A stretch of 64,000 nt of DNA from the NCBI GenBank assembly GCA_021792135.1, contig JAJYVF010000023.1, forward strand, positions 1 to 64,000, written 5' to 3'. Source of the DNA: Acidobacteriota bacterium. GTDB taxonomy: Bacteria; Acidobacteriota; Terriglobia; Terriglobales; Acidobacteriaceae. Below are positions 21,413-47,462 of this stretch, piece after piece. The translations under genes were made by a program, and so were the position numbers. The notes under the pieces are model-generated. The model worked only from the letters and a program-made list of their open reading frames with translations. It did no database searches and had not been told where the DNA came from. Each line of letters opens with the position of its first letter. The stretch's first letter is position 1.

Positions 21413-24400
21413 TCAAAACTCCACGCGGAAAGTTGCCTGGCCCTGACGATTACTGATTTGAGAGCTCAGGTTGATGATCTGGCCGAAGGTTGAGTCGAGC
21501 GAGTTATTGTCGGGCCCCTGCAGCTGAGTGCGGTTGAAGGCGTTGAAGTAATCGAGGCGCAGGCTGGCCTGCACGCGTTCGCCGAGGCGGAAGCTCTTGA
21601 TAGCGTCGAAGCTCTCGATTCGCAGCGGCGGCGTCCGGAGAGCCGCATAGGCGCGCTTTGAAGTTCCGAGCTGCCATGGCCCCGTGTTCTGGAAAGCGTT
21701 GGTGGTGAACTGAACCGGCTGGGTGCTCGTCTTACCGGTGAAGAAAGCTTTCGAGCGGCCGTAGTTAAAGGTCTTTAAAGTCACGCCAGAGACAATGTTC
21801 GGCCGGTCAAAGCTGTTGACGAGCAGAGGATTGTAACTGTTCTGGGCGCCGAAGGGATTACCGCCGGCATAGTTGAGAATCGCACTGAACTGCCAGCCGC
21901 CAACCAGCTCCGACAGGTACTTATTGCTGTTCAGGAAGGCTTTGCCCGCACCGAACGGGAGGGCATACGTTCCAGCCAGCTTGAAGTTATATAACTGGTC
22001 GAGATAAGAGGGAACGTATTCCGGCCGCGGGTTATAGGCGTTCATGCCGTTCGGAGAATACGGGGCCGAACCGATGGAGGTATTGGCTGTGTTTCTGGAT
22101 ATCGTGAGGTCGGTCAGGATGCTGAGTCCTCCCTGGAATCGTTTATCGCCCTCAAGCTGCAACGCATTGTAAAAGGCGGTTCCATCCATTTCGTACACGG
22201 GGAAGAAGCCGCCGAACTGGGGATACGGGGTGAGCGCCTGTTCGAGCGTGGCGGAGCTGCCGAACTGCTGGGCGAACCCAGGATAAGGCTGGGTGAAGCC
22301 AGCGGCCACCACGGCAGGATCGAGGATGTTGTCTCCGAGCAGGGGGCCGTACTGCAGCACGGAGGGGTTAGGCTGATTCGACAACTCAAGGGTGTCGGGG
22401 AGGTGGATCGCCCGGTTACCCACATAGGAGGCGGTGAGGAACATACTCCAGGGGAGCTCGCGCTGGATCCCTATGCTCCACGCCTGATCGTAGGGCGCGG
22501 TTCCGACCGAGGGCGAGTTGGGCAGGTACGGCGGGTTGTTGCGATGCTTGTAGGGGAAGTCGAAGATGATACCGCCATTGCCGATTGAGGGCGTGAAGGG
22601 AACCTGCTGGGGGAAGGGGAGGGTCTGCGAATCCCAGCTGCCGTAGCCAGGTGTGCTGCTGCCGGTGGAGGCGCGCAGGAAGGAACCATCCAGCAGGGTG
22701 GACATGAAGGAAGCAGCGAAGGCGGTGCCGTACTCATATGCGCCGCCATTGAGGAAAGTGATGTAGAAACCCGACTGCAGCACAGTTTTGGGGGTGAGCT
22801 GATAGGAGAATCCCACCCGGGGCTGCCAGTTCTTCCAGTGGATGGCGGCCCGGGTGATTCCGGCGCAACCCGTGCAGTTACCGAATTTGGTGGCTGCCCC
22901 GAGAAGGCCGCCAGCGCCGGGATTGGGCTCGGTGCGGTCCACAAAGATGATGTCGTTGTGCTCCTCGGTAAAGGGCACGAGCACATCCCAGCGGATACCC
23001 AGATTGAGGGTCAGTCGATTGCTGACCTTGTAGTCGTCCTGGGCATAGAGAGCAAAGGCGTTGTTGCGCATTTTTAGCTCATTGGCAAAGATGCGCTCCG
23101 TCGAGTCCACCTGGCCCAGCAGAAAACTGGCGAAGGAACTGCCGTAACTGCCGAAGTTAGGGTCGGTCGAGTCGGGTGTGGAGGTATTTCTCTGGCTGAA
23201 GTCGAAGGTGCCGCTGCAAAAGTTGCAGTTGATGGTGTCCTGGAAGGTGCGCCGGTACTGGAAGCCAAAGTTCATGGTGTGGCTTCCATGCGTCCAGAGC
23301 CAGTTGTTGACGCCGACAATGCCCAGGGTGCGGTTGTTGTTGACGGTCAGGCCGCCTTCGCAGCATTCAAGATAGGCGCCGCCGCTGACACCCCAGGCGG
23401 TAGGCGCATTCTGACCATCGAAGGTGATCAGGGGGAGGGTCGTTCCGCCCGCGACGGCACCGAACTTCACGTTGGGGTTGGCGTTATGCTGGCCGACGAT
23501 GTATCCGATCCAGTCAGCACCGGCGGTCAGGACGAGGTTGGGGTTGATGGTCTTGACGTAATTCAGCAAAAAGCCCGAGCCCAGGTTCTGGTTAGTTTCC
23601 TCGCTCTGCAGCGGATTGGCGATGGGCACGATGGGAGCCGAAGTGAAGATGGGGGAATTCACCGTGTCGCGCCACTGGCTCCAGTGGATGCTCTGAGAGT
23701 TCGTGAGAGTTTCGTCGATGGTATAGGCCCAGAGGGTCTGCCGGATCGGGATGGAAGCAATGGCGGGAGTCTTGTTGGATTCAAGTCCGTTGTTGACTCC
23801 TGCCCGATCCGGGTTGGGGATGTACTGCAGCAGGCTGGCCGCCAGGGCACTGAAGCGGCTCTGGGGGATGATGTTTCCGGGGAAGGGCTGTTTGGTTTGC
23901 GGATCGTAGATGGGAATCATGTTCCCGGAGGAATCGAGGAAATTGCTGAAGTCGCCCTGTTTCATGGCGGCTGTGGGGACGGTTCCGATGCTGTTCTGGG
24001 CCTGGTTTTGGCGGAACCAGTCGCCGCTGAAATGGAAGAAGGTGCGATTCTTCCCGTTGTAGAGGTGAGGAAGGATGACCGGACCACCGAGGGTGAAGCC
24101 GTAGTTATTCTGCTGGTTGATGGGGGCTTCGGCCTTCCCGGTGGGCGAGAAGCGCGTTGGGAAAAAACCGGCGGAATCGAAGAGTTGATTGCGCAGGATC
24201 TCAAACGCGTCGCCGTGGAGATCGTTGGTGCCCGAGGCCATGTTAAAGGTGACGGCCCCCTGGCCGATCCCATACTGCGCGTCGAAGGTGGAGCTGTTGA
24301 CACGAAACTCGCTCACCGCCTCGTAGGGCGGATTGATGAAGGTCTGGTTGCCCTGAAACTGCACAAAAGCCACGGGCACGCCGTTGAACTGAGCTTCGTT

Positions 24401-24988
24401 CTCGTACGTGACGCCTCCGTTGATGTTATGGAAGGTGGCGCTGCCCTGCACTCCGGGGGCGAGATACATAAAGGAATCGATCTGGCGTGCCATGCCATTG
24501 ATTTCGATCGGAGCAGTTTTCACCAGTTCCGGCTCCAGAGTTGTTCCAATGACCGGTGAGGTCGTGTTCAGCGAGATGGAACTGCCTTTGACGTTGACGA
24601 CCTGCGTGGCGGCGCCGGGCTGCATGGTGGCATTGACCGTGGACATTTTGGCGATTTCAACGATCACACTGGTCTGAAAGCTTCGGAAGCCGGTGGCGTC
24701 GATGGCCACCGTGTAGTTGCCCGGGGTGACGCCGATGACCGTGTAGGTCCCCGCCGACGAGGTCGTGGCATCCGAAGACACACCGGTGGCAACATTGGTG
24801 ATCTTCACCTTGGCGTCGCGAATAACGGCACCGGTTGGATCGGAGACGGTTCCGTTGATGCCGCTTTGCACCTGTGCACCCAGGGGTCCAGCGAAGAGAG
24901 TGAGGGCCAGCAGCACCAGGGTGGGCAGGAGAACCGGTTGCGCGCAGCTTCGTATGCGGGAGTAGAAGTTACGTCTTGGGTGTTTCAC
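21413..24988 (-). CDS. TonB-dependent receptor with carboxypeptidase-regulatory domain (Oar-like)
   Basis: A 1191-residue outer-membrane receptor. Signal peptide (LLPTLVLLALTLFAGPLGAQ), then a CarboxypepD_reg-like Ig fold (GINGTVSDPTGAVIRDAKVKI ... GTYTVIGVTPGNYTV), a divergent plug (VVNVKGSSISLNTTSPVIG ... INGMARQIDSFMYLAPGV) and a long 22-strand-type barrel ending QATFRVEF with terminal Phe. This acidobacterial type is thought to import glycan pieces or peptides using TonB energy. The start is GTG 24988 with GGAG eight bases upstream. The glycosidase genes on both sides of it (19824 and 25353) make an oligosaccharide ligand likely. No TonB box could be fixed by eye. Confidence 0.88.
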   Translation of the reverse strand: MKHPRRNFYSRIRSCAQPVLLPTLVLLALTLFAGPLGAQVQSGINGTVSDPTGAVIRDAKVKITNVATGVSSDATTSSAGTYTVIGVTPGNYTVAIDATGFRSFQTSVIVEIAKMSTVNATMQPGAATQVVNVKGSSISLNTTSPVIGTTLEPELVKTAPIEINGMARQIDSFMYLAPGVQGSATFHNINGGVTYENEAQFNGVPVAFVQFQGNQTFINPPYEAVSEFRVNSSTFDAQYGIGQGAVTFNMASGTNDLHGDAFEILRNQLFDSAGFFPTRFSPTGKAEAPINQQNNYGFTLGGPVILPHLYNGKNRTFFHFSGDWFRQNQAQNSIGTVPTAAMKQGDFSNFLDSSGNMIPIYDPQTKQPFPGNIIPQSRFSALAASLLQYIPNPDRAGVNNGLESNKTPAIASIPIRQTLWAYTIDETLTNSQSIHWSQWRDTVNSPIFTSAPIVPIANPLQSEETNQNLGSGFLLNYVKTINPNLVLTAGADWIGYIVGQHNANPNVKFGAVAGGTTLPLITFDGQNAPTAWGVSGGAYLECCEGGLTVNNNRTLGIVGVNNWLWTHGSHTMNFGFQYRRTFQDTINCNFCSGTFDFSQRNTSTPDSTDPNFGSYGSSFASFLLGQVDSTERIFANELKMRNNAFALYAQDDYKVSNRLTLNLGIRWDVLVPFTEEHNDIIFVDRTEPNPGAGGLLGAATKFGNCTGCAGITRAAIHWKNWQPRVGFSYQLTPKTVLQSGFYITFLNGGAYEYGTAFAASFMSTLLDGSFLRASTGSSTPGYGSWDSQTLPFPQQVPFTPSIGNGGIIFDFPYKHRNNPPYLPNSPSVGTAPYDQAWSIGIQRELPWSMFLTASYVGNRAIHLPDTLELSNQPNPSVLQYGPLLGDNILDPAVVAAGFTQPYPGFAQQFGSSATLEQALTPYPQFGGFFPVYEMDGTAFYNALQLEGDKRFQGGLSILTDLTISRNTANTSIGSAPYSPNGMNAYNPRPEYVPSYLDQLYNFKLAGTYALPFGAGKAFLNSNKYLSELVGGWQFSAILNYAGGNPFGAQNSYNPLLVNSFDRPNIVSGVTLKTFNYGRSKAFFTGKTSTQPVQFTTNAFQNTGPWQLGTSKRAYAALRTPPLRIESFDAIKSFRLGERVQASLRLDYFNAFNRTQLQGPDNNSLDSTFGQIINLSSQISNRQGQATFRVEF

Positions 24989-25352: not shown

Positions 25353-26813
25353 TCACTGCCGGGTGATACGCAATGCAATGTCGATGGTGTATGTGGGGGT
25401 CTTCAGATTGTGAGTACCTCCGGCATGGCTGAAGCTTTCGCTGGCCAGAGTGGAGCCCGAGGCGGGATCGATCCATTCGGCCTGGTAGTCGCCGGCCGGC
25501 AGAGCCAGCACCAGAGTTTCCTGATAATGTCCGGGGGTTACGGTGTAGGAAGCTTCGCCGCCGCCTTCGCTGTGATGAATATAAAGCGCGTATTGTTTGC
25601 CGTACTGACTTAGGCCGCGGTAATGGGTCTCCCGGTCAAAGCCGCTCACAACAAATCCGCGGTCGGGGACCATGCGCACAAAGTCGAAGCTTTCGAGGAA
25701 GCGCTTCAGGTTCCGCAGCGAACTCAGGAGCCGGGCGTTGTCCGGAGTATTACCGGCTGGATCGTCTGCCGTGAATTCTCCGTTGAGCTGGTTGAAGCTG
25801 GCGCCGCCGCCCACCATGAACTCCCATGCTTCGACGCGGGAATCGGCCACGGCGTCTCCCTTGTAGAGAGGGAAGTAATTGGTCTCGTTCTGCTCAATGG
25901 GCTTGCTGTGCCAGTATTCGCGGTCGAGGCCCTGCAGTCCGCCCATTTCCCAGTCGTGCGTGTGCCACAGGTATTGCGTAATGACGACAGAGAGATCGGG
26001 ATTGCCGGACATATCCACCGGGCCGTCGATGGGACCCTGAACCTCCTGGCCAATCAGGTGCCGCCGGGGCAGGCCATCTTCGGCGTCGTGCACGACCTGC
26101 AGCATGTGGGCGACCCATGGGCCGGCTTCATCGACCGGGGTGAAGAGGGCGGGCTCGTCGCAAACTTCGAGAATGACATTATCGAAGGAATTTACTTCCT
26201 GAACAATCTTGCGAACATACGCGGCTTCGCGCTCGACCAGCTGGGGATCCTTGAGCGTCTGGGCGTCGCGATAGCCATCGTGGCCGACTCCCTGGATGTT
26301 GTTTTCGTAGTAGAGGGGGCTGAGCGGCCACGTATCGTCGTACTGCCCGTTGAAGAAGCAGATCTCCACGACAATGCCGCGTTTGCCGGCATCGGCAATG
26401 AACTTCTTCAGGCGCGCGAAGTATTCGGGATTCCAGTGGTCGAGGTCGAATTTGTTTCCCGAGAGGAGATAGCCGGGCTGGTTGCTTCGCGCCCACGGGA
26501 GCACCAGACTGGCAGGTTTCACGCCGAGGGTGTTGCCGGTCATGTACTTTCCCATCGGCTCGAAGAGATAGCCGGGATAGATGCGCGTGTAATTGAGTCC
26601 GTAACTTGCCAAAGCATCGAGATAGCGGTCGAAATCGAAGTCGCCATTGACGACCGCGCCGTAGTGCTCGGCTGAAGTAATGAGCAGAATTGGCTTGCCG
26701 TGGAAGGTGTAGTAGTGCGGATTTTCCGGGCTGATGCCGATGGGCTGGACTCCCGCCGCTGCGAAGGAAGTCAGCGCCAGCATGAAGCCCACCATCCTGA
26801 TTCCACTGAACAT
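25353..26813 (-). CDS. Secreted TIM-barrel glycosidase-like protein
   Basis: A 486-residue protein with a signal peptide (MVGFMLALTSFAAAG). It begins SPENPHYYTFHGKPILLITS and AEHYGAVVNGDFDFDRYLDAL, then YTRIYPGYLFEP; these features are shared with clan GH-A relatives of the DUF4038/cellulase group. FDNVILEVCDEPALF supplies the strand with the likely acid/base glutamate (DEP). The C-terminus (GGEASYTVTPGHYQETLVLALP, YQAEWIDPASG) is again a collagen-binding-type beta domain. It is the third such enzyme in 10 kb. It is downstream of the AraC gene (77-base gap) and upstream of the TonB receptor. Substrate unknown. Confidence 0.7.
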   Translation of the reverse strand: MFSGIRMVGFMLALTSFAAAGVQPIGISPENPHYYTFHGKPILLITSAEHYGAVVNGDFDFDRYLDALASYGLNYTRIYPGYLFEPMGKYMTGNTLGVKPASLVLPWARSNQPGYLLSGNKFDLDHWNPEYFARLKKFIADAGKRGIVVEICFFNGQYDDTWPLSPLYYENNIQGVGHDGYRDAQTLKDPQLVEREAAYVRKIVQEVNSFDNVILEVCDEPALFTPVDEAGPWVAHMLQVVHDAEDGLPRRHLIGQEVQGPIDGPVDMSGNPDLSVVITQYLWHTHDWEMGGLQGLDREYWHSKPIEQNETNYFPLYKGDAVADSRVEAWEFMVGGGASFNQLNGEFTADDPAGNTPDNARLLSSLRNLKRFLESFDFVRMVPDRGFVVSGFDRETHYRGLSQYGKQYALYIHHSEGGGEASYTVTPGHYQETLVLALPAGDYQAEWIDPASGSTLASESFSHAGGTHNLKTPTYTIDIALRITRQ

Positions 26814-26889: not shown

Positions 26890-28056
26890 TTATGTTCCAA
26901 TGTTGCGCAGGTACGGATTGGGCTGCGGCGGCGATAAACTCGCGCCGCTGCGAGCAGACTCCAGTGCCGGCACGCCGATGGGGTTCAGGGGCGGCATGTG
27001 GTAGGGCTGCCGCTGATCGGTCATCGTGTTGCTGCGGACGCGGCGCCGATAGGTCGCCGGAGTCATACCGACAATGCGGCGGAAGACCGTGCCGAAATAG
27101 CTCTGGTCACAGAAGCCAACCTGCTGGCTGATGCCGGCCATGGATTCGTCGGTCTTCGCCAGCAGGGCCTGGGCGCGCTCTATGCGGAAATGATTGCAGT
27201 AGGTGACAAAGGAGAGCCCGGTGACGCGCTTGAAGAAGCACATAAAGTGCGACTCGCTCATGCCGCAGACGCGGGACGCTTCGCGCACCTGAATGGCGTT
27301 GGCGCAGTGCTCGCCAAGGTAGCGAAAGAGCGGGCGAAGGCGTTCGAGGTCCTGCTGCTGGCGCTGGAAAATCTCCACCGTTCCCGCGTAGGGAGCGTAC
27401 TGATTGACCAGCAGCATCAGGAGCATTTTGAGGCAGGTTCTCAGGGCAAGCCGGCTGCGCGGCGAGGACGCGGGGATCTCCGAGCGGATGCGCAGCATGA
27501 GGTCGAGCACCTGGCGCGGGACGCCGGTTTCCGCAGGAACGATGTGCGGGAAATCCTCGTCCTGCAGAAGGAACGGCGTGAGGTATTCCGCGCTGTCGCT
27601 GGCGCCGTCGCAGCGGATGAGGTCTGGCTCGAAGAAGAGGGCGGCAAGGGTGACAGGCGAGGAGGAGGCGCACTCGATACGGTGGTAGAGCGTGCTGCCG
27701 ATGATGGCTAGATCGCCTTCGTTAAAGGGCAGAAGGCGATCCTGGATGTGGCAGTTGGCGGATCCGGAACAGAGAAAGAGAATCTCGAAGTAGCCGTGAC
27801 GATTCATGCGCACGCGATGACGGTCGTCGACGGTGAGAAAGAGGACGTCGATGGGGCAGGAGACGTCGAAAGGCCAGACGTGAATGCCTTCGGCGTTGAT
27901 CTGCGGCTCGACGAGGCTGAAGTGGTCGCGGCATGAGGTGCGTGGAACCTGGATGCGCGCAAGATCGCTGCGCCGGCCCCCGAAGGATTCCACTGCGGTG
28001 AGGTCGGGCTTTCCGGCATCAATGTTCGATTCGGAAGATTTCTTCAGCCTGGCCAT
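26890..28056 (-). CDS. AraC-family regulator closing the nine-gene operon
   Basis: A 388-residue activator. The N-terminal cupin-like sensor (NRHGYFEILFLCSGSANCHIQDR ... FNEGDLAIIGSTLYHRIE) precedes two helix-turn-helix motifs (IQVREASRVCGMSESHFMCFFKRVTG and ISQQVGFCDQSYFGTVFRRIVGMTPATYRR). A Pro-rich tail of about 40 residues follows. ATG 28056 lies 38 bases inside the end of the DSD1-type gene, so translation is coupled and the regulator is the last gene of the operon. It is a close paralogue of the regulator at 38301: ledges such as SLVEPQINAEGIHVWPFD and LTPFLLQDEDFPHIVP are shared. It probably senses a metabolite of the operon's pathway (inference). Confidence 0.88.
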   Translation of the reverse strand: MARLKKSSESNIDAGKPDLTAVESFGGRRSDLARIQVPRTSCRDHFSLVEPQINAEGIHVWPFDVSCPIDVLFLTVDDRHRVRMNRHGYFEILFLCSGSANCHIQDRLLPFNEGDLAIIGSTLYHRIECASSSPVTLAALFFEPDLIRCDGASDSAEYLTPFLLQDEDFPHIVPAETGVPRQVLDLMLRIRSEIPASSPRSRLALRTCLKMLLMLLVNQYAPYAGTVEIFQRQQQDLERLRPLFRYLGEHCANAIQVREASRVCGMSESHFMCFFKRVTGLSFVTYCNHFRIERAQALLAKTDESMAGISQQVGFCDQSYFGTVFRRIVGMTPATYRRRVRSNTMTDQRQPYHMPPLNPIGVPALESARSGASLSPPQPNPYLRNIGT

Positions 28057-29077
28057 GGCGGACTCCGTACATGTGGGAATGCAGGTTAATGGTCGCGTCG
28101 CTGTAGTGCACCCAGATTTCAACCTTCTGGCCGACTTCGAGGCACGGCGACGATTGTGGGTCGAGTTCGACGAGGGCGTGTTCAGCGTGCAGTGCTGTCA
28201 GCCGGGCGCCGGGTACGTCTTTCAGTGTGGAGAGGCCGCGCTCGCCGCTGATCGCCTTCACGCCGCAGTCGAGTACCCCGTGCCGATCGCCCCGGGTGCT
28301 GATAACGGTGGCGAGCACGGTGAGCGAGCGCTGGAACGGGGCTCCGCGGCCCAGATAGATGTTGTCCATGAGGAGATACGATCCGGCCTGGATCTCGGTG
28401 ATGCCGGGGTAATCGCCGGAGACGGACCAGGTGCCCGTGCCTCCGGTGGAGACGATGGGCGCGGCAATCCCGGCAGATTGCAGCAGGGCGGCTGAGTCCA
28501 CCAGCGACTGGCTGCCGCTGCGAACCACCTCGTCGCGTTCGGGACTGGGCGGCACCGCCTGGAGATGACCGTCGTAGCCCATGATGCCGCGCACCGCGAG
28601 GCCCTGCTGAGCAGCGCAGCGGGCCAGTTGCAGCGCGGGATCGCCGGGCTGGACGCCGCAGCGGCCGAGGCCGATATCGATGTCCACCAGCACCTCGATC
28701 TGCGATTGGCGATTGCGCTGCGCTCGGGCGAGATCGCGGATGGAGTGGGCATTATCGACAGCGACCATGACCGAAGCGTGGCGCGCCAGTTCCGCCAGGC
28801 GCTCCGGCTTCTCGTCTCCGGCGATCTCGTTGGCGATGAGGACGCTGCTCATGCCGTGCTCGACCAGGATTTCGGCCTCGCGCACGGTCGCGCAGGTCAT
28901 GCCGATGGCCCCCGCGCGCATCTGCTTCCAGGCGAGCAGCGGCGTCTTGTGGTTCTTGAAGTGGGGGCGAAGCTTGCAGGGCCGCTGCCGGAAGAAGTCG
29001 GCCATGGTGCTGAGGTTCGACTCCATGGCGTTGAGATCCACCAGCAGCGCCGGCGTTACGATCTGATCTACTTTCAT
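28019..29077 (-). CDS. DSD1-family PLP enzyme (D-threonine aldolase / D-serine dehydratase-like), copy 1
   Basis: A 352-residue fold-III PLP enzyme of the alanine-racemase-N/D-threonine-aldolase class; relatives split or dehydrate beta-hydroxy D-amino acids. IVTPALLVDLNAMESNL opens the barrel; KLRPHFKNHKTP holds the PLP lysine (about K41). Phosphate and barrel motifs DIDIGLGRCGV, MGYDGHLQ and STGGTGTW follow. The C-terminal region where the family's metal ligands lie reads HYSDATINLH. The residue pattern differs slightly from the usual H-x-C/D but is the same in the paralogue at 39533, so it defines a subgroup. It is gene eight of the operon, 25 bases after the LsrG-like gene. A 3-hydroxy amino acid substrate is inferred. 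Confidence 0.82.
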   Translation of the reverse strand: MKVDQIVTPALLVDLNAMESNLSTMADFFRQRPCKLRPHFKNHKTPLLAWKQMRAGAIGMTCATVREAEILVEHGMSSVLIANEIAGDEKPERLAELARHASVMVAVDNAHSIRDLARAQRNRQSQIEVLVDIDIGLGRCGVQPGDPALQLARCAAQQGLAVRGIMGYDGHLQAVPPSPERDEVVRSGSQSLVDSAALLQSAGIAAPIVSTGGTGTWSVSGDYPGITEIQAGSYLLMDNIYLGRGAPFQRSLTVLATVISTRGDRHGVLDCGVKAISGERGLSTLKDVPGARLTALHAEHALVELDPQSSPCLEVGQKVEIWVHYSDATINLHSHMYGVRHGQAEEIFRIEH

Positions 29078-29102
29078 GGCCGTTCCGTTCAGGAGATCCG
29101 GA

Positions 29103-29414
29103 TCAGGGCAGGATCTCCTCGTAAAGCTTGACTTCGAACTGGTCCACCAGACCGGGGCGGACGTTGTCGAAGAAGTCAGTGATGTAAGAGGTGGCGCAGT
29201 GCTCGTCGAAGGCCTTGCGGTCCTTCCATTTCTCGATGAAGGTGATGCCGCGGGGATTGTCGGTGCGCTGATTCAGCTCGTAGCGCAGGCAGCCGGGCTC
29301 CTTGTGCGTCGGCTTCATCAGCACGTGAAGAGCCTCGATCAACTCGTCGGTTTTTCCTTCCTTCGCAAAGAACTCCGCTACGCAAACAACCTGCGTGGTG
29401 TTTTTGTCAGGCAT
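29103..29414 (-). CDS. Antibiotic-biosynthesis-monooxygenase-fold protein (LsrG/YgiN-like)
   Basis: A 103-residue single-domain ABM/dimeric alpha-beta barrel protein. [21 protein letters not shown], then [11 protein letters not shown] and [19 protein letters not shown] match the family; members include LsrG, which isomerises phospho-DPD, and YgiN-type quinol oxygenases. It overlaps the LsrF gene by 8 bases (ATG inside the LsrF stop region), mirroring the lsrF-lsrG pair of the AI-2 operon. The sequence is nearer to generic YgiN-type members than to E. coli LsrG, so an isomerase role is suggested mainly by its neighbour. Confidence 0.8.
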
Positions 29415-30306
29415 ACTGGCTCTTCTCCTGGATCGATTTCAGTGACAGATACAAATCGTGGGCTTTCTCCGGCGTTTCGTTTTCGTGGACGACGGCGCGC
29501 ACGGCCTGGATCATGGCCTGCGGAGCTTCACACTGGAAGATGTTGCGGCCCATGTCCACGCCGGAGGCGCCTTCGTTGACGGCGCGATACGCCATGGCGA
29601 GAGCCTCCGGCTCGGGCAGCTTCTTGCCTCCGGCGATCACCAGCGGAACCGGGCAGCCGGCGGCGACGCGGGCGAATCCGGACTCGCAGTAGTAGGTCTT
29701 GACGAAGTGGGCGCCCAACTCGGCGCAGATTCTGGTGGCCAGGCCGAGATACTTCGCATCGCGCACCAGCTCCTTGCCCACGCCGGTGACGGCCATGGTG
29801 GGAATGCCATGACGATTGCCGCCGTTGACGATCTCCACCAGATTGCCGATCGATTCGTGCTCGTGCACGCCGCCGATGTAGACCTGCACCGCCAGGGCGG
29901 AGGCGTTGAGGCGCACGGCGTCTTCGATGTCGACGGCAACGCGTTCGTTGGAGAGTTCCTTGAGAATGCTCTGGCCGCCGCTCGAGCGCAGGACGACGGG
30001 CTTGGCCATCTCCGGCGGGATGGAGCTGCGGAGCGCGCCGCGGGTGATCATGAGCGCGTCGGCGTACGGAACCAGCGGCGCGATGGTGATGTCGATGCGT
30101 TCGAGGCCCGTGGTCGGCCCCTGGAAGTAGCCGTGATCGACGGCCAGCATCACGGTGCGGCCATCCTGTGGGTTGAAGATGCGGGCCAGCCGGTTCTTCA
30201 TGCCCCAGTCGAGAGCATTGCTCCCTTTGAGGGAGAAGGCCGCGCAGGTCTGCGGCACATCGAGGTAGAAATTCTTTCCGTCCTGCAGGTCGTGTGTATC
30301 GGCCAT
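29407..30306 (-). CDS. lsrF: LsrF-type 3-hydroxy-5-phosphonooxypentane-2,4-dione thiolase
   Basis: A 299-residue class I aldolase-fold thiolase. It is strikingly like E. coli LsrF over its whole length: [84 protein letters not shown] and [13 protein letters not shown]. The Schiff-base lysine falls at residue 203, as in E. coli. In the AI-2 pathway LsrF uses CoA to split phospho-HPD into acetyl-CoA and dihydroxyacetone phosphate. Here it sits between DhaL (1-base gap) and an LsrG-like gene (8-base overlap), with no lsrACDBRK nearby. GGAGG lies 6 bases before ATG 30306. The physiological substrate may therefore be another 5-phospho-2,4-diketone. Confidence 0.9.
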
Positions 30307-30307
30307 T

Positions 30308-30955
30308 TCAGGCCTCCTTCATTTGGGTGAGGGCGTCGCTGAATCCACGGAAGAAGAGGGCGATGGAAGTAGCTCCGGGATCGGGACTGCCGCGGGTTTT
30401 TTCGCCAAGAAACTTCGCCCGTCCGTAACGGGCGATCATGTCTCGTGTGGAGTCGGCGCCGGCACGGGCGGCGGCGGCGGCTTCCTTCATGGCCTCGGAT
30501 ACGGACTTCCCGGAAGAGGCAGCGGAAGCGAAGGCCTGGACCGCGGGGACCAGCGCATCCATCATGGTCTTGTCTCCCGGCTTCGCTTTGGTCTGCTTCA
30601 GCAGCGCGCGCAGACCGGCCTCGAAGCTGGCGGCGAGATGTTTGCAGTCGCTCTCCTCGCCGATGTCCGCCTCGCCCATGCCGGCGATGAAGCTGCCGAG
30701 AATGGCGGTGGAGGCTCCGCCGTCAACGCCGAGCACGGCCCAGCCGGCCTCGCGCAGGATTTCGTTCAGGGTTTTCGCGCTGCTGGTCTCCATGGTTCCT
30801 TCAAGTTTTTCGACAGTGCGGAGCATGGTGGTGCCATGGTCTCCGTCGCCGGCGATACAGTCGAGCCGCGAGAGGCTCTCATGCTCCCGGCGGATTTGCT
30901 TCGCCGCTTCCGCGAACATACGTGCCAGCTCCGTTCTGCAGATTCGGTCGCTCAT
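30308..30955 (-). CDS. dhaL: Dihydroxyacetone kinase subunit L (nucleotide-binding)
   Basis: A 215-residue DAK2 domain. [16 protein letters not shown] carries the aspartates that hold the nucleotide's magnesium ions; [21 protein letters not shown] and the C-terminal [19 protein letters not shown] are the other family motifs. ATG 30955 overlaps the DhaK stop by ATGA, so the two subunits are translationally coupled. Together they should phosphorylate a short ketone-type sugar bound covalently to DhaK. Whether ATP or a phosphotransferase donor is used is undecided: no DhaM or PTS gene is nearby, which favours ATP. Confidence 0.9.
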
Positions 30956-31944
30956 AGCTTTGCGAAGAAGGGCGCGTCGGCAGGCGCGTCCCACAGCTCC
31001 GTCAGTTCCGGATCCATGCGCGCGATCATCATCTGGAAACCGGCCTGCTCCTGGGTAGTGATGAACTCGCCGATGGCGCTGCGCAGGAGGCGAATCTTCT
31101 TCGCCTCGAGAAGCTGCGCGACACGGCGAAAGATGAGGTACAGCTCCATCAGCGCGGTGGCTCCCGCGCCGTTGAGCATGACCAGCAGCTCTTCGCCGGG
31201 CTGGACGCCGAGATCGGCGAGGAGCTTTTCCAGCATGATCTCCGCCGTTTCGTTGGCGGTCTTGAGCTGCATGCGCCCGGTGCCGGCTTCGCCGTGCTGG
31301 CCCATGCCGATTTCCATTTCGTCGTCGCCCATTTCGAAGATGGGCTGGCCGGTGGCCGGATGGGTCGCAGTGCGGACAGCAACGGCCAGGGTGCGCATGT
31401 TGCGCTCCATCCGCTCGGCCACTTCCAGGCAGGTGTCCAGCGAGGCACCCTTTTCCGCCGCGGCGCCGGCCACTTTATAAACCGCTACACAGCCGACGAG
31501 ACCGCGGCGGTCGCCGGGCTCACCGGAGATGTCTTCCTGCGTGAGGACCATTTTGACCTTCAGCCCTTCGCGCTCGGCGGCCTGCATGGCGATGTTGCCC
31601 GCCAGCACGTCGCCGGCGTGATTCAGCACGATCAGCAGAGCCCTTTCGCCGCCGGCACAGGCTTCGCGGAGGGCCTCAATGACCTTCACCGCGCCGGGAG
31701 CTGCGAAGATTTCGCCCGCCACGCTCGAGTCCAGCATGCCTTTACCGACGAAGCCGCTGAGGCCGGGCTCGTGCCCGCTGCCGCCGAGTGTGACCACCCG
31801 CACCTTGCCGGGTTCTTTGGGCGTGGCCCGGACGATGGTGTTGGTGCCGCGCAGCCGGATCCTGTCAGGGAAGGCCAGGGTGAAGCCTTCGAGCAGCTCG
31901 GGAACCAGGTTCTTCGGATCGTTGATGAATTTCTTCATGCGCAT
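30952..31944 (-). CDS. dhaK: Dihydroxyacetone kinase subunit K (substrate-binding)
   Basis: A 330-residue DAK1 domain. FINDPKNLVPELLEGF opens the protein as in DhaK; GGSGHEPGLSGFVGKGMLD is the substrate loop; GMGQHGEAGTGR contains the histidine that covalently holds the carbonyl substrate (usually GIHGEPG, here with inserted Q). VMLNGAGATALMELY is the conserved late motif. AAGGAG lies 9 bases before ATG 31944. It follows the permease by 16 bases and overlaps DhaL. In this operon it likely phosphorylates a C4-C5 dihydroxy ketone rather than plain dihydroxyacetone, an inference from the LsrF neighbour. Confidence 0.9.
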   Translation of the reverse strand: MRMKKFINDPKNLVPELLEGFTLAFPDRIRLRGTNTIVRATPKEPGKVRVVTLGGSGHEPGLSGFVGKGMLDSSVAGEIFAAPGAVKVIEALREACAGGERALLIVLNHAGDVLAGNIAMQAAEREGLKVKMVLTQEDISGEPGDRRGLVGCVAVYKVAGAAAEKGASLDTCLEVAERMERNMRTLAVAVRTATHPATGQPIFEMGDDEMEIGMGQHGEAGTGRMQLKTANETAEIMLEKLLADLGVQPGEELLVMLNGAGATALMELYLIFRRVAQLLEAKKIRLLRSAIGEFITTQEQAGFQMMIARMDPELTELWDAPADAPFFAKL

Positions 31945-31960
31945 GCGGCGCTGCTCCTTT

Positions 31961-33355
31961 TCACTCGTACGCGGAGGGGTCGGTCATGACCATGGGTTTG
32001 CGGAAACGTTCGGTATGGACAGCGAGCACAAAGACGCCGAGCACCAGCCAGATGCTCCCGGCGATTTTGGCGGGACGGCTGAGGCCGATCCAGATGACGG
32101 CGCAGAAGAGAAATCCGGCTGCGGGGAGAAGCAGATCGAGCAGGAAGTTTCTCCGGTGACCCTCGGTGCGGCGGATCCAGAACTGCCAGATCACGGCTAC
32201 GTTGACGCCCATGAATCCCAGGAATGCGCCGAAGTTGAGCAACTCGGCGGTGAGCTCGTAGCTCATGAACTGGGCTCCCACGTACGCCAGCACTCCGAGC
32301 AGCAGGATGTTGATCCAGGGGGTATTTCGCACCGGATGAAGCTGGGCGAAGATACGCCGGGGAATGACGTTTTCGCGGCCCATGCCGAAGAGCAGACGGG
32401 CGGCGCCGACCTGGGAAGTCAGCATGGCTCCGATGTTCGCAACGACCAGCAGAATGGCCATGGCCTGAAAGAGCATGGGGCCACCGACGCGGCCGGTGAC
32501 GTCGATAAAGGCGGTCTCGATGTTGGAGTAGGTGGTGTAGTTGGGCCAGACAAGATGCGCGAGATAGACGAGCAGTCCGCCGAAGAGCCCGGTGAAGACG
32601 CAGACGATCACCGCAGCCAGCAACACGTTGCGACGGGGGTTTTTGACGTCCTCCGCGAGGGTGGTGACAGCGTCGAAGCCGAGATAGGTCAGGGCGGCGA
32701 AAGAGGTGGCCGAGGCAATATCCCGCACGTGGAAGGTGGCGCGGTTGTAGAAGGGCTGGATGGAGAAGAGACCGCCGACTCCGTGGCGGACGACAATATA
32801 TTTGGTCGCCAGCACGATGAAGGTGATCAGGACGCCGAACATGGCCACCAGCATGACGTCGTTGGCGCGGGCGGTGTAGCGGATGCCGCGCAGGTTGAGC
32901 CCGGTAATTCCGCCGGCGAAGAACAGCGCGCCCAGGGCGAAAGGGATCGCCGGAACGGCGCGCTGCAGGGCGAGGGTCCCGTAGATGACGCAGAAGAGGG
33001 GGATGAACACGTAATCCAGAAGCATGGCCCAGCCGGCAAAGAAGCCGAGGTAGGGGTGGATGCCGCGGCTGACATAGGCGTAGGCCGAGCCGGCCGAGGG
33101 ATAGAGGGACGCCATGCGTCCATAGCTGATGGCAGTGAGTACCATGGCCACCATCGCGGCCAGAATGCAGACGACGACGTATCCGTGGGACTGCTGCTCC
33201 GCCAGACCGAAGATCGTGGCCGGAGCGCTCGGGGTCACGGCGACGATGCCGTAGAAGATCAGATCCCGGAGCGACAGGACACGATGCAGCCTCTGCGACT
33301 CATCGGGAAGCTGCGGTTGATCGGCTGTCGGCAGCGGCGTGGCGGGCAGACTCAT
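31961..33355 (-). CDS. APC-superfamily permease
   Basis: A 464-residue transporter with 12 membrane segments. SLRDLIFYGIVAVTPSAPATIFG begins helix 1 with the unwound region typical of APC carriers; YPSAGSAYAYVSRG and LTYLGFDAVTTLAEDVKNPRRN are the classic amino-acid permease signatures. Its ATG overlaps the TGA of the SMP-30 gene by 4 bases. Carriers of this type usually take amino acids or amines, which fits the DSD1-type enzyme in the same operon better than it fits a sugar. It is the only transporter in the nine-gene set. Confidence 0.85.
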   Translation of the reverse strand: MSLPATPLPTADQPQLPDESQRLHRVLSLRDLIFYGIVAVTPSAPATIFGLAEQQSHGYVVVCILAAMVAMVLTAISYGRMASLYPSAGSAYAYVSRGIHPYLGFFAGWAMLLDYVFIPLFCVIYGTLALQRAVPAIPFALGALFFAGGITGLNLRGIRYTARANDVMLVAMFGVLITFIVLATKYIVVRHGVGGLFSIQPFYNRATFHVRDIASATSFAALTYLGFDAVTTLAEDVKNPRRNVLLAAVIVCVFTGLFGGLLVYLAHLVWPNYTTYSNIETAFIDVTGRVGGPMLFQAMAILLVVANIGAMLTSQVGAARLLFGMGRENVIPRRIFAQLHPVRNTPWINILLLGVLAYVGAQFMSYELTAELLNFGAFLGFMGVNVAVIWQFWIRRTEGHRRNFLLDLLLPAAGFLFCAVIWIGLSRPAKIAGSIWLVLGVFVLAVHTERFRKPMVMTDPSAYE

Positions 33356-34257
33356 GCAACTCCTCTCGGCTCTTCTGCCGGCGTCCCATCCCGGAGCGGA
33401 AGACCGTCGCAGTCGACTGAAAACGATTCGATCTGGCCGTACTCGTATTCCGTCACATGAATACGGTGCTGGCCAGGAAGGGCAAAGGCGACATTGGTAG
33501 GCAGGTTTCCGCTGGTGGGCAGGCGGCGGGCCACCCGGCCGTCCGGCGCCAGCACGGTGACGTCGCCCTGGGCGAAAACGGCAACGTAGAGCTCACCGTT
33601 CCGGTCGAAGGCCATGCCGTCGGGGCCTTTCCAGCCCGGCGGGGCATCGGGCCGGATCACGTTGCCGAAGAGCTCCCGCTTCGCGGAGACGCCCACGTCC
33701 GTCCACGCATAGCGGTAGATATTTCCCGTGAGGGTCTCGTTCGCGTAAAGCGCGAGATCGGGACCGAAGGCGATGCCGTTGGTGAAGCGGATGCCACGAT
33801 CGAGCAGGGTGACCGAGCCGCTTCGCGGATCGACGCGGTAGACGCGCCCGTCGTAGTTGAACCGCATGTAGTCGCGGCAAACCTCGTTGTTGGGGGCGAA
33901 AACGGCGACATCGACGCCGGAGTCGGTGAGGTAGAGGGCACCGTCGGGGCCGAAGCAAAGGTCGTTGGGGAAGAGGAAGGGCTCGCCGTCGCCCTCGGTG
34001 GCCACCACCTCGCAGTGCCCATCCATGGTGAGGCGGAGCAGGGAGGGAATCTTCGATTCGGCAACCCAGATGACTCCACCGGCGTCGACCGCCAGGCCAT
34101 TGGGCCGCCCGGTCTTCTTAATTTCCCGCCTTGATGCGCCGTCAGCGCTGATGTGCGTGACGCAGCCGCGCTCGGCTCCGCCCTCGACGATCAGCCAGCT
34201 TCCGTCGGGCAGGGCGACGGGCCCTTCCGGATTCTGAAGACCCCGCGCGAAAATCAT
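33352..34257 (-). CDS. SMP-30/gluconolactonase-like beta-propeller hydrolase
   Basis: A 301-residue six-bladed propeller. Early EGPVALPDGSWLIVEGG carries the metal-ligand glutamate; GRPNGLAVDAGG, FPNDLCFGPDGALYLTDSG, FTNGIAFGPD and GPDGMAFDRNGELYVAV supply the Asn/Asp ligands expected in the SMP-30 family. Members open sugar lactones. No signal peptide, so cytoplasmic. It follows the SDR gene by 28 bases: oxidation by the SDR then lactone opening is a natural order. ATG 34257 gives MIFARGLQNPEGP. Confidence 0.85.
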   Translation of the reverse strand: MIFARGLQNPEGPVALPDGSWLIVEGGAERGCVTHISADGASRREIKKTGRPNGLAVDAGGVIWVAESKIPSLLRLTMDGHCEVVATEGDGEPFLFPNDLCFGPDGALYLTDSGVDVAVFAPNNEVCRDYMRFNYDGRVYRVDPRSGSVTLLDRGIRFTNGIAFGPDLALYANETLTGNIYRYAWTDVGVSAKRELFGNVIRPDAPPGWKGPDGMAFDRNGELYVAVFAQGDVTVLAPDGRVARRLPTSGNLPTNVAFALPGQHRIHVTEYEYGQIESFSVDCDGLPLRDGTPAEEPRGVA

Positions 34258-34285
34258 AGGTTCCTCCGATTTCTCGCGTGTGCTG

Positions 34286-35038
34286 TTAGACCTCGGCGGT
34301 CTGGCCGCCGTCGACGTGGAGGACGGCGCCAGTGACAAACGACGCGTCATCGGAGGCCAGGAACAGAGCCGCGGCGGCGATCTCCTCGGGGCGGCCCAGG
34401 CGGTTCATAGGGAAGGTCCTGGCGAAGGCCTCAAGCTCGTCGGGGGTGAGCGCTTTCCGCAGCATAGGCGTGTCGGTCGGGCCTGGACAGATTACATTCA
34501 CCCGAATCCCGAGTTTGGCGTAGTCGATGGCCATGGAACGGGTGAGCAGCGTGACGCCGCCCTTGGAGCTGACGTAGGCGGCGGCGTGGGCGCAGGCATC
34601 GTGGGAACCGGTGGTGGAAGCCACGTTGACGATGCTGCCGCGGCGCTTCGCCACCATATGTTCCAGGGCGGCTTTGGAGACAAGGAAGGTGCCGGTCAGG
34701 TTGACGGCGAGCATGCGGGCCCAAGCTTCCTCCGTGGTCTCCAGAACCGTTCCGTAGGCCAGAATGCCCGCTCCATTAAAGAGAATGTGGAGGTCGCCGA
34801 ATTCGGCGATGGTGGCCTGCACCACGGATCTGGAACTTTCTGCCTGAGTGACGTCGAGCCGGGCGAAGCGGGCCCTTCCGCCCGCCTGGCGGATCTGCTC
34901 CACGGTTTCCATTCCGCCGGACTCACTGGTGTCGGCCACCATGACGGACGCGCCCTCCTGCGCGAACCGAATCGCGACAGCGCGGGAAATGCCTGAAGCT
35001 GCGCCAGTTACCAGCGCGACCCGGGAGGAAAGCCTCAT
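34286..35038 (-). CDS. SDR-family oxidoreductase, first gene of the nine-gene operon
   Basis: A 250-residue classical SDR. The cofactor motif reads TGAASGIS instead of GIG, and the NNAG motif reads NGAG (LFNGAGILAY). YVSSKGG keeps the catalytic Tyr and Lys, and NVASTTGS the serine. VADTSES after strand 2 favours NAD(H). ATG 35038 follows a divergent 262-base promoter region shared with the SDR at 35301. It heads a run of nine tightly packed genes, so it probably performs the first oxidation of the pathway. The two motif changes are minor but unusual together. Confidence 0.85.
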   Translation of the reverse strand: MRLSSRVALVTGAASGISRAVAIRFAQEGASVMVADTSESGGMETVEQIRQAGGRARFARLDVTQAESSRSVVQATIAEFGDLHILFNGAGILAYGTVLETTEEAWARMLAVNLTGTFLVSKAALEHMVAKRRGSIVNVASTTGSHDACAHAAAYVSSKGGVTLLTRSMAIDYAKLGIRVNVICPGPTDTPMLRKALTPDELEAFARTFPMNRLGRPEEIAAAALFLASDDASFVTGAVLHVDGGQTAEV

Positions 35039-35216: not shown

Positions 35217-35300
35217 CTGGGCCGAAGACCGGCTCCTACTATGCTGGGGCGGACGATTGAAGTTGCCTGAAATCGGCTGACGCAGGAAATGGAAAGGATC

Positions 35301-36062
35301 ATGAGACTATCCGGCAAAGTAGTGATTGTTACTGGAGCTTCAGTGGGGCTGGGCCGCGCGGCCGCCAGCAGGTTCGCCGAGGAGGGGGCGTCGGTGGTTG
35401 CGGCGGATACCAACGAAGCCGACGGCACAAAGCTGGCCGAAGAGCTCAAGTCCCGGGGCCTTGAGGCCATGTTCGTTCACACCGACGTTTCGCAGGAATG
35501 CGCGGTGAAAACCCTCTTCGGGCAGGCGGTGGCGCGCTACGGAAAGATCGACGTGCTGTACAACAACGCCGCCATCCTGCTGGCCGACCGCGATCGGCCG
35601 GTGCATGAGATCAGCCTCGAGACATGGGATTACGTGATGGGGGTCAACCTGCGCGGCGCGTTCCTGTGCGCGAAATATGCTCTGTCCTCGATGCTGAGCA
35701 ACGGCGGCGGATCCATCATCTTCCTTGGCTCTCCCACCGGGCTCGTTGGCTGCGCACCGGCCCTCACAGCCTACAGCACCAGTAAGGCGGGGATCATGGG
35801 GCTGACCCGGGTGATGGCGGCAGCCTACGCGCGAGATCGGATCCGGGTGAACTCCATCGTACCCGGCACCATGGATACCCCTATGAATAACTACATCCTG
35901 ACGGACCCCGAAGCGCGGGAGAAGTACCGCGAAGCGGTCCCCCTGGGGAGGCTTGGGACGCCGCAGGATATCGAGGGGCTGGCGGTCTTCCTGGCCTCGG
36001 ACGAATCGGCCTACTGCACCGGTGGGCTGTATATGTGCGACGGCGGGCTTACGGCCGTCTGA
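35301..36062 (+). CDS. SDR-family oxidoreductase, tandem copy 1
   Basis: A 253-residue SDR: TGASVGLG cofactor motif, VLYNNAAILLADRDRP (NNAA in place of NNAG), serine in FLGSPTG, YxxxK in YSTSKAG, and the C-terminal GLYMCDGGLTAV. VAADTNEA suggests NAD(H). It is a close paralogue of the gene at 36334, differing mainly in the middle. ATG 35301 was chosen to match the paralogue's MRLSG start; an upstream ATG at 35289 is possible. Two strong hairpins follow the stop. It probably acts on the same or a related hydroxy substrate as its neighbours (inference). Confidence 0.87.
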   Translation: MRLSGKVVIVTGASVGLGRAAASRFAEEGASVVAADTNEADGTKLAEELKSRGLEAMFVHTDVSQECAVKTLFGQAVARYGKIDVLYNNAAILLADRDRPVHEISLETWDYVMGVNLRGAFLCAKYALSSMLSNGGGSIIFLGSPTGLVGCAPALTAYSTSKAGIMGLTRVMAAAYARDRIRVNSIVPGTMDTPMNNYILTDPEAREKYREAVPLGRLGTPQDIEGLAVFLASDESAYCTGGLYMCDGGLTAV

Positions 36063-38073: not shown

Positions 38074-38300
38074 GTGTCGTAGAGCTCCTGGAGCACCATG
38101 AAGCCATCGTGGAATCCTGGGAAGATTCTACGGCGGTTCCCCGCAGGGATCCTGGGTTTGGTACGCCCTGGTTCTCGTTTCAGGCGCACCTGGCAAAGGT
38201 GAACAAACGGAAGCTCTCGGCGTACCGGCGCCTGTGGCATGGGCGGCGGGCAGGGAAAGCCCCGGCGCGTCGCGGGGATCCGGGGAGAGGAGGTTCAGCG

Positions 38301-39425
38301 ATGTTGAGTTCGCATGAAGCATCGGGCCGATCAGCGAAGGCGCACACGGCAGGAGGATCGCCGGCGCAAGATCATGCATGCGCGCGGAGGGCCTCCGCGC
38401 CCATGCGGGTGCTGCCGGTGCCGGAGAGCTCGTGCGAAGACATCTTCCGTCTGGTGGAGCCGCAGATCAATGCCGAGGGCGTGCACGTGTGGCCATTCGA
38501 TGCGGCATTCCCGGTGAACGTGCTTTACCTGACCAAGAGCGCCAGAAACAGCGTGCGGATGAACCGGCATAAGTATTTCGAGATCACCTGCGTCTGTTCG
38601 GGCAACGGCGATTACCATATCCAGGACCGGCTTCTGCCCTTTCGCGAAGGGGACCTCGCGGTGGTGGGCAGCACGCTGTACCACCGGATCGAGTCGCGCT
38701 CCGGTCCCATGACGCTGGCCACGCTCTTTTTCGAACCGGACCTGATTCGCAGCGACGGCAGCCACGACGGCGCCGAGTATCTGACGCCCTTTCTGTTGCA
38801 GGATTCGGATTTTCCGCACATCGTGCCCGGAGAAAACGGCATCCCGGATCAGGTTCTCGACCTCATGCGCCGTATTCGCGGCGAACTGCCGGCGCGGACC
38901 GCTCTGGCGCGCCTGACGGTGAGGACCTATCTGAAAATGGCTCTGGTGCTGCTCGTGAATCATTACTCTTCCTATTCGGGAACGATCCAGACCTTTCAGC
39001 GCCAGCAGCTTGCCCTGGACCGCCTGCGTCCGCTGTTCGAATTCATTGCCCTGAATTATGGCGGGAGTATTCAGGTAAGAGAAGCAGCGCGCATCTGCGG
39101 AATGAGCGACTCGCATTTCATGAGCTTCTTTAAGCAGGTAACCGGGCAATCGTTCGTTCGCTACCTGAATCATTACCGCATCGAACGCGCGCAGCTGCTG
39201 CTGACCACGACGGACGAAACCATGGTGAGCATCAGCCAGAAGGTCGGATTCTGCGATCAGAGTTACTTCGGCACCGTCTTTCTGAAGCTCCAGGGTGTCA
39301 CGCCGGCAGCTTACCGGCGTTGTCATCGATTCAATCGCGAAACCGGCGCAGCGGAGGTGATTCAATCCGCGAGCGAGCCGATGCTGCGCCGGGCTGCCGC
39401 GCCGCAGCCTGCTGCTTCCCTGTGA
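38301..39425 (+). CDS. AraC-family regulator, second copy
   Basis: A 374-residue paralogue of the regulator at 26890. The cupin-like sensor (NRHKYFEITCVCSGNGDYHIQDR, FREGDLAVVGSTLYHRIE) and paired HTH motifs (IQVREAARICGMSDSHFMSFFKQVTG; ISQKVGFCDQSYFGTVFLKLQGVTPAAYRR) are all present. ATG 38301 has AGGAGG seven bases upstream; reading further 5' gives low-complexity, non-homologous sequence. The N-terminal 60 or so residues differ from copy 1, so effector response may differ. The DSD1-type gene at 39533 follows by 107 bases on the same strand, reproducing the DSD1/AraC pairing of the operon. Confidence 0.9.
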   Translation: MLSSHEASGRSAKAHTAGGSPAQDHACARRASAPMRVLPVPESSCEDIFRLVEPQINAEGVHVWPFDAAFPVNVLYLTKSARNSVRMNRHKYFEITCVCSGNGDYHIQDRLLPFREGDLAVVGSTLYHRIESRSGPMTLATLFFEPDLIRSDGSHDGAEYLTPFLLQDSDFPHIVPGENGIPDQVLDLMRRIRGELPARTALARLTVRTYLKMALVLLVNHYSSYSGTIQTFQRQQLALDRLRPLFEFIALNYGGSIQVREAARICGMSDSHFMSFFKQVTGQSFVRYLNHYRIERAQLLLTTTDETMVSISQKVGFCDQSYFGTVFLKLQGVTPAAYRRCHRFNRETGAAEVIQSASEPMLRRAAAPQPAASL

Positions 39426-39532
39426 GATGTAAGCGCCGTGGCAATTGCCGGAAGGGGCGACGTTGCGGGTGTGCGGCGGAGGCTGGGTCTCCGGGGGAAC
39501 TGACTGAGACAGGATAGAGGGGAAATGGCTGA

Positions 39533-45811: not shown

Positions 45812-46004
45812 CCTTGATCTTTCCCGAGTCATTGAGGCGCTCTTCTCTCCACCTTAAAAAGCCATCTCCGGATCGCAGCTGCTCGCAAAAGCCAGATACT
45901 GCCAGCCATGATTATAAGAATCGGTGAAGTCACGTGCACTTGCGGAGAGTTCCGGAGGTACCGTGTGGAAGGCAGCGATCCTGGAATATTCTGACAGGAA
46001 CCCC

Positions 46005-47456: not shown

Positions 47457-47462
47457 ACCTGG

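Follow-up and report, generated by a model that had tools for sequence, protein, structure and literature searches.

Gene content of the locus

We describe here a nine-gene operon on the reverse strand of a 64,000-nucleotide window (contig JAJYVF010000023.1, assembly GCA_021792135.1) from a soil-dwelling Acidobacteriota bacterium of the family Acidobacteriaceae, in which genes of dihydroxyacetone kinase type, dhaK and dhaL, directly precede a gene for a class I aldolase/thiolase of the LsrF family. All nine open reading frames (ORFs) are present on the reverse strand, free of internal stops, in the head-to-tail run at positions 26890–35038 that a sequence-only reading of the window had claimed, and the coordinates given here use the start codons of that reading. 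From the first gene onwards, the operon encodes a short-chain dehydrogenase (SDR1, 250 amino acids, 34286–35038, Pfam adh_short_C2), an SMP-30/gluconolactonase-like lactonase (301 amino acids, 33352–34257, PF08450), an APC-superfamily permease (464 amino acids, 31961–33355, PF13520), a DhaK of an LsrF-linked subfamily (330 amino acids, 30952–31944, PF02733), DhaL (215 amino acids, 30308–30955, TIGR02365) with a GDGDHG motif at residue 36, LsrF (299 amino acids, 29407–30306; NCBIfam NF006081, residues and solved-structure match), a small ABM-fold protein and putative isomerase (103 amino acids, 29103–29414, PF03992), a DSD1/D-threonine-aldolase-like pyridoxal phosphate enzyme recognized by family match (352 amino acids, 28019–29077) and an AraC-family regulator (26890–28056, PF12833/PF02311). 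These family assignments agree with Pfam and NCBIfam.

The junctions from SDR1 to AraC measure +28, −4, +16, −4, +1, −8, +25 and −38 bases. The overlaps of 8 bases between LsrF and the ABM protein and of 38 bases between DSD1 and AraC are exactly as first reported, and the ATGA junctions, previously counted as three, come to two 4-base overlaps. A sequence-motif scan returned no promoter-like sites and 10 terminator-like sites, against 5.6 expected by chance, and was uninformative. A divergent short-chain dehydrogenase on the forward strand (SDR2, 35289–36062, assigned by Pfam) probably also belongs to the module.

DhaK, DhaL and LsrF are linked in several phyla

The window's DhaK was compared with one genome per GTDB species, and the operon proteins were placed by tblastn on the best 80 of the resulting loci, of which more exist. 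LsrF lies 13–1550 bases downstream in 19 of the 24 loci whose DhaK is at least 47% identical to that of the window, as against 1 of the 56 loci below this cut, which was chosen after viewing the data (Fisher p = 7e-13, kinship ignored). Of the other five high-identity loci, which show no LsrF, the DNA examined extends 3 kb or more downstream in two, and a genome-wide search found LsrF over the family cut-off elsewhere in the genomes of loci L107 and L109. The 20 linked loci represent about seven phyla: by record title nine are Acidobacteriota, four Planctomycetota and two Bacteroidota, with one each from Hydrogenedentota, Verrucomicrobia, Spirochaetales, Candidatus Limivicinus and an ‘uncultured bacterium’, where we take Phycisphaerae and Thermoguttaceae to be Planctomycetota, Parabacteroides and Sediminicola to be Bacteroidota, and Candidatus Limivicinus to be Firmicutes. 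Plasmids of Parabacteroides distasonis and Aureibacter tunicatorum hold two further annotated examples of the pairing.

Within the phylum, 14 of the 16 further acidobacterial loci, which come from 15 genomes, have DhaK, DhaL and LsrF together at 48–88% protein identity; L214 lacks LsrF on a contig that ends 0.5 kb past DhaK. The trio looks like a real pathway module recurring in several phyla. The sequence-only reading had proposed that LsrF is coupled by gene order to DhaK–DhaL in place of an FGGY kinase, a coupling borne out by the loci above, and it had set conservation of gene order beforehand as one test of its pathway idea; that order is clearly conserved in relatives. A literature search, mainly of titles and with subscription papers largely beyond its reach, returned no described pathway with this gene set among the papers listed, and the two apparent matches pairing LsrF with dihydroxyacetone kinase were false, being the name of a flow cytometer.

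The operon's distribution is uneven. Of 300 genomes in the window's family, 24 matched DhaK at all and 12 carried the linked type, and DhaK was found in none of the 11 other listed members of the window's genus, indicating patchy inheritance. A phylum-wide search placed LsrF over the cut-off in 72 of 396 genomes; a further 57 acidobacterial loci of the LsrF family (54 above the cut-off, 3 weaker) showed no DhaK or DhaL on the 3.9–19.9 kb examined, and most acidobacterial LsrFs examined have neighbours other than DhaKL.

A separate DhaK group with an altered pocket

Against the NCBIfam dhaK1 equivalog the window's DhaK scores 312 bits, below the cut-off of 406, as fits a separate DhaK subfamily, and DhaL scores 149.9 bits against TIGR02365, above its cut-off of 138.3. 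In an unrooted tree of 85 DhaK rows built by a quick method, a branch with a Shimodaira–Hasegawa-like approximate likelihood ratio (SH-aLRT) of 100 parts 24 linked rows, the window's included, and five others from 56 ordinary rows, and a smaller tree (47 rows, without the window's DhaK and most ordinary rows) gave the same split. The linked side is mixed, with L102, L105, L106, L107 and L109 having no adjacent LsrF on the DNA examined.

When the 24 linked and 56 ordinary rows are aligned in Escherichia coli numbering, position 104 is Leu in 23 of the 24 linked rows and Lys in 55 of the 56 ordinary ones, position 106 is His in all 24 versus Tyr in all 56, and position 217 is Gln in all 24 versus Ile in all 56; further changes fall at positions 51, 60, 79, 80, 82, 112 and 113. 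Every row has His218, and Asp109 is missing from just one of the 24 linked rows; the window's DhaK retains the catalytic His218 (its own His217 by alignment), His56 and Asp109. We take Lys104 to contact dihydroxyacetone in E. coli DhaK, and the conserved His and Asp to have catalytic roles. With the pocket changed and the catalytic His and Asp intact, the linked DhaKs would keep the mechanism and read a different substrate, which is probably not plain dihydroxyacetone. The kinase thus shares with the DhaKL(M) dihydroxyacetone kinase its DhaK and DhaL families, catalytic His and Asp, and GDGDHG motif, but departs from it in forming a separate, LsrF-linked DhaK group altered at Lys104, Tyr106, Ile217 and other pocket positions, and in having no DhaM among the nine operon proteins.

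One LsrF enzyme type, two kinds of kinase

The proposed match of LsrF to its E. coli namesake is firm: the two are 65% identical, and the window's protein scores 487 bits on NF006081, the thiolase family for phospho-3-hydroxy-2,4-pentanedione (P-HPD), against a cut-off of 297. Among solved structures it aligns to E. coli LsrF at 422 bits and to fructose-bisphosphate (FBP) aldolase at 50, its next relatives being 2-amino-3,7-dideoxy-D-threo-hept-6-ulosonate (ADH) synthase (MJ0400) and class I FBP aldolase. Residue 203, named earlier as the Schiff-base lysine, is indeed Lys, and stands with Asp57, His58, Asp251 and Arg254, a set invariant across 79 tabulated rows (three distant outgroup rows left out); PMC2728841 proposes roles for the catalytic residues. 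A second set, Q62/Y143/G175, is common to seven acidobacterial linked rows, all four enterobacterial rows and all three from Shinella and Sagittula, and is complete in none of the 14 other LsrF rows compared; position 175 is Gly in all nine acidobacterial linked rows and Ala in the 67 that make up the three remaining non-Lsr groups. In the LsrF-family search the E. coli control genome gave only a match below the cut-off, though E. coli LsrF belongs to the family; the strain may lack lsrF.

On the LsrF tree the nine acidobacterial linked rows form a clade (100/98) that stands, with modest support (87/64), beside two enterobacterial LsrFs, and the other 13 linked LsrFs form a second lineage (100/95) together with a Lacticaseibacillus Lsr protein and the acidobacterial LsrF of L071. 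The DhaKL link is therefore carried by two LsrF lineages. In Shinella (L237) and Sagittula (L240), LsrF neighbours an FGGY kinase. These clusters resemble the operon in their Q62/Y143/G175 residues and in grouping a kinase, an oxidoreductase and LsrF within a sugar cluster, and differ in carrying the FGGY kinase and an ABC transporter, together with a class II aldolase–SDR fusion in Shinella and a GlpD-like protein and class II aldolase in Sagittula. One type of LsrF enzyme is thus accompanied by an FGGY kinase in some clusters and by DhaKL in others, and this alternation is the best evidence that phosphorylation here falls to DhaKL. At L038, L066, L055 and L237, LsrF stands beside a class II aldolase–SDR fusion or a zinc dehydrogenase without DhaK or DhaL (neighbours at the first three named by eye and similarity), and LsrF therefore probably serves several pathways.

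Comparison with the Lsr system

Elsewhere LsrF is known for its part in breaking down the signal autoinducer-2 (AI-2). In the Lsr system for AI-2, LsrG isomerizes phospho-4,5-dihydroxy-2,3-pentanedione (P-DPD) and LsrF moves an acetyl group to coenzyme A (CoA), freeing dihydroxyacetone phosphate (DHAP), as described in PMC8016206. The operon shares with it an LsrF close to that of E. coli with its catalytic residues, a kinase acting with LsrF, and an ABM-fold gene running into the end of lsrF, an overlap also seen for lsrG in Enterobacter and Klebsiella. It differs in having DhaKL instead of the FGGY-type LsrK, in the presence of SDRs and glycan hydrolases, and in lacking an ABC transporter. 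LsrK, LsrR and LsrACDB were found neither among the nine operon proteins nor by eye in the window's ORFs, LsrR and LsrACDB having had no family search, and the genome's four FGGY genes all lie off contig C23. LuxS has no match in the genome (5 of 14 control genomes matched), which disfavours AI-2 production by the organism itself. The small protein, previously called LsrG-like, resembles LsrG only at the level of the ABM fold: it scores 23.9 bits on the NCBIfam LsrG equivalog (cut-off 135), its closest solved chain is SO0527/2bbe, and no LsrG-named chain occurs among its 13 solved-structure matches up to an E-value of 0.1.

The locus most like an lsr operon fitted with DhaKL is Spirochaetales L112 (3875–15145), which combines a SorC/LsrR-type regulator (by eye), two DhaK, a 112-amino-acid protein without Pfam match, DhaL and LsrF with an SDR and a sugar ABC transporter, the latter named by eye with its binding protein searched. 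In Klebsiella pneumoniae L239 (7001–14858), genes of the dha group (glycerone kinase, dhaM, dhaL) are found some 3.5 kb away from a genuine lsr operon, on the opposite strand, and this is not the linked DhaKL–LsrF arrangement.

Accessory and flanking genes

Counted across the 16 acidobacterial loci in 15 genomes, some of them cut by contig ends, DhaK and DhaL are each present in 16, LsrF in 14, the ABM protein in 13, AraC in 10, SDR1 (64–80% identity), SDR2 (56–78%) and SMP-30 in 9 each, DSD1 in 8 and the APC permease, at no less than 50% identity, in 6. SMP-30 has no match in L091, L092, L096 and L209, four loci that retain SDR1 as well as DhaK. The usual acidobacterial core comprises the SDRs, DhaKL, LsrF, the ABM protein, AraC and an apiosidase-like hydrolase, and the lactonase, permease and DSD1 enzyme are optional; their earlier inclusion in the pathway is set back by the absence of each from several relatives. 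With DSD1 and the permease optional, a hydroxy-amino-acid substrate is weakened and not favoured. Glyoxylate chemistry of BhcC type was set aside for DSD1, whose 216 bits fall short of the cut-off at 690.

Three reverse-strand genes lie 3′ of the operon: a 486-amino-acid protein that has no Pfam match and by eye resembles a secreted hydrolase (25353–26813; a 79% identical copy lies beside the module in L089), a TonB-type outer-membrane receptor, named by eye (21413–24988; 69–77% identical copies near the module in L089, L090, L096 and L209), and a PF13204 apiosidase-like, GH140-like hydrolase (19824–21281; 166 bits). The last has the apiosidase 8t9w as its best solved chain, a remote match of 85 bits over residues 47–476. 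Both this hydrolase and the receptor are conserved beside the operon in some relatives. A DUF5060/PF13204 homologue occurs near the module in 10 of the 16 acidobacterial loci, including the query's own L096 (Pfam was run on the L103 copy only), and the sole solved-structure match of the DUF5060 protein is a putative glycoside hydrolase. Any DUF5060 match was found in 8 of the 12 family genomes with linked DhaK versus 50 of 288 others (Fisher p = 3e-4, kinship ignored), a tally that takes two draws of 300 family genomes as identical.

Further from the operon, glycosidases of families GH92, GH125 and GH36 (43376–49898) mark the window as a glycan-utilization region. A second AraC and DSD1-like pair, named by eye, lies on the forward strand at 38109–40585 beside a major facilitator superfamily (MFS) transporter and a zinc dehydrogenase. 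L095 and L096 have sugar-isomerase-like triosephosphate isomerase (TIM) barrels in the neighbourhood of the module.

Hungatella effluvii L102 (8215–12175) carries a SorC-type regulator (by eye), DhaL, a linked-type DhaK and a protein of about 105 amino acids. Trio-bearing loci in Bacteroidota, Planctomycetota, Hydrogenedentota and Verrucomicrobia (L110, 206–13094; L111, 6113–16669; L170, L169, L098 and L100) share, in varying part, this weakly glyoxalase-like protein of about 105 amino acids, an exported protein of about 225 amino acids without Pfam match, and c-type-cytochrome/beta-propeller, chorismatase-N/RidA-like and 1338-amino-acid NPCBM/HZS_alpha/SUMF1 proteins, a gene set that is perhaps a second undescribed system.

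A proposed pathway and its alternatives

We consider it somewhat probable that the operon is a catabolic module for a plant-derived sugar. The gene content, the conserved DhaK–DhaL–LsrF trio, the changed DhaK pocket and the complete LsrF catalytic residues are observed, and from them we infer the reaction steps. Extracellular apiosidase-like hydrolases and the TonB-type receptor would supply the sugar, which SDR1 and SDR2, with the lactonase where present, would oxidize, the ABM protein shifting a carbonyl to leave a ketone with a free CH2OH, HOCH2-CO-CH(OH)-R or a branched form. DhaK would bind this ketone through its catalytic histidine and DhaL would phosphorylate the CH2OH, so that DhaKL replaces the LsrK of the Lsr system, with isomerization probably preceding phosphorylation. 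Lys203 of LsrF would then form a Schiff base with the carbonyl that adjoins the phosphate-bearing carbon, and cleavage beyond the carbon that comes next would give DHAP for glycolysis and a second fragment. By analogy with E. coli LsrF, this fragment would be an acyl-CoA if it starts with a ketone carbon; besides the acyl-CoA of the sequence-only reading, it could be CO2, as in an apiose-type route, or an aldehyde. LsrF requires a ketone adjoining CH2-O-phosphate, and DhaK-type kinases produce just such a ketone from HOCH2-CO-R, which makes the order of SDR oxidation, isomerization, DhaKL and LsrF coherent. The specific earlier hypothesis was that DhaKL makes a 5-phospho-2,4-diketone from a C5 compound and that LsrF cleaves it with CoA.

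Several observations weigh against this assignment. L210 (G647:C116) has DhaK, DhaL, ABM, DSD1, AraC and SMP-30 genes without LsrF, and a genome-wide search found no LsrF anywhere in G647, a 93% complete assembly, making this a genuine exception to the pairing. Searched genome-wide, the genomes of L102 and L105 also yielded no LsrF (nor did that of L106), and the Hungatella locus L102 has a class II FBP-aldolase homologue in its place. Of the 41 ordinary-DhaK genomes searched, 5 have an LsrF above the cut-off at a site separate from DhaK. The pairing requires at least two changes on the LsrF tree, a figure equalled by 33 of 500 label shuffles, so that the tree does not establish a single origin for it. 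In the window's own genome, the operon-type DUF5060 hydrolase (68–74% identity) is unlinked, on contig C55.

Among concrete substrates, apiose is the best guess, on the strength of the nearby apiosidase-like hydrolases and the families missing from the genome, and is one we hold tentatively: the operon as a second, non-homologous oxidative apiose pathway seems to us rather unlikely. SDR1 and the lactonase would give apionate, SDR2 and the ABM protein would carry out oxidation and a hydroxymethyl shift to 3-oxo-isoapionate, DhaKL would be the 3-oxo-isoapionate kinase, and LsrF would decarboxylate 3-oxo-isoapionate 4-phosphate, perhaps to DHAP and formaldehyde. That phosphate is an analogue of P-HPD in which a carboxylate replaces the acetyl group. 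The established 3-oxoisoapionate-4-phosphate decarboxylase, which we take to be of the RuBisCO-like family, and 3-oxoisoapionate kinase, presumably PF07005, have no match in the genome (5 and 3 of 14 control genomes matched, respectively), which argues against the known enzymes here; the known dehydrogenase, lactonase and oxidoisomerase were not searched for. In the reaction types and their order the operon, with SDR, SMP-30, ABM, DhaKL and LsrF instead of those families, parallels the enzymes named in PMC11747546 (apiose dehydrogenase, apionolactonase, apionate oxidoisomerase, the kinase and the decarboxylase), and apiosidase-like genes of PF13204 are present in the window itself and, in relatives, next to the module. 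Yet the likeness of the window's hydrolase to solved apiosidases is remote, the DUF5060 hydrolase matched only a putative glycoside hydrolase, and several relatives lack the lactonase.

A simpler ketose 1-phosphate route, in which DhaKL phosphorylates C1 of a ketose and LsrF, working without CoA like any class I aldolase, releases DHAP and an aldehyde, we judge unlikely. It gains from the kinship of LsrF to ADH synthase and class I FBP aldolase, from the retention of Asp57, the aldolase general base, from the class II aldolase homologue beside DhaLK in Hungatella and from the TIM barrels of L095 and L096, but the gap between 422 and 50 bits, the Q62/Y143/G175 set held in common with enterobacterial Lsr LsrFs, and two SDRs that would be superfluous for a simple aldose–ketose conversion count against it. 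Very unlikely is scavenging of AI-2 (DPD), with DhaKL replacing LsrK on AI-2 or an isomer and LsrF finishing as in E. coli. The Lsr-type residue set and the grouping of a SorC/LsrR-type regulator, DhaK, DhaL, LsrF and a sugar ABC transporter at L112 speak for it; however, LuxS is unmatched, no ABC transporter occurs among the nine operon proteins, the hydrolases and TonB-type receptor point to a polymer, and the L112 binding protein matches sugar-binding proteins, with none of its 32 solved matches named LsrB. A chance neighbourhood, in which DhaKL salvages dihydroxyacetone and LsrF is unrelated, would agree with the 57 acidobacterial LsrF-family loci without DhaK or DhaL, but the linkage recurs across phyla within the altered-pocket DhaK group, and we regard this explanation as barely credible.

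Implications

LsrF carries the annotation of an AI-2 enzyme, yet it is found here beside another kinase, in settings that include glycan degradation, so that in such genomes both the annotation and the AI-2 conclusions based on it may be mistaken. The linked DhaKs are also defined as a group, and a new substrate is predicted from the residues of their pocket. The presence of the module in Parabacteroides distasonis, a culturable gut commensal, makes the question directly testable. More broadly, it is conceivable, though on balance doubtful, that we are dealing with an undescribed module spanning phyla, in which the substrates of the new DhaK subfamily are sugar-derived hydroxymethyl beta-dicarbonyls, phosphorylated and then cleaved by LsrF, with CoA, to DHAP and acyl-CoA. 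If so, this would be a general way of breaking down oxidized sugars, of which the Lsr processing of AI-2 would be one specialized offshoot.

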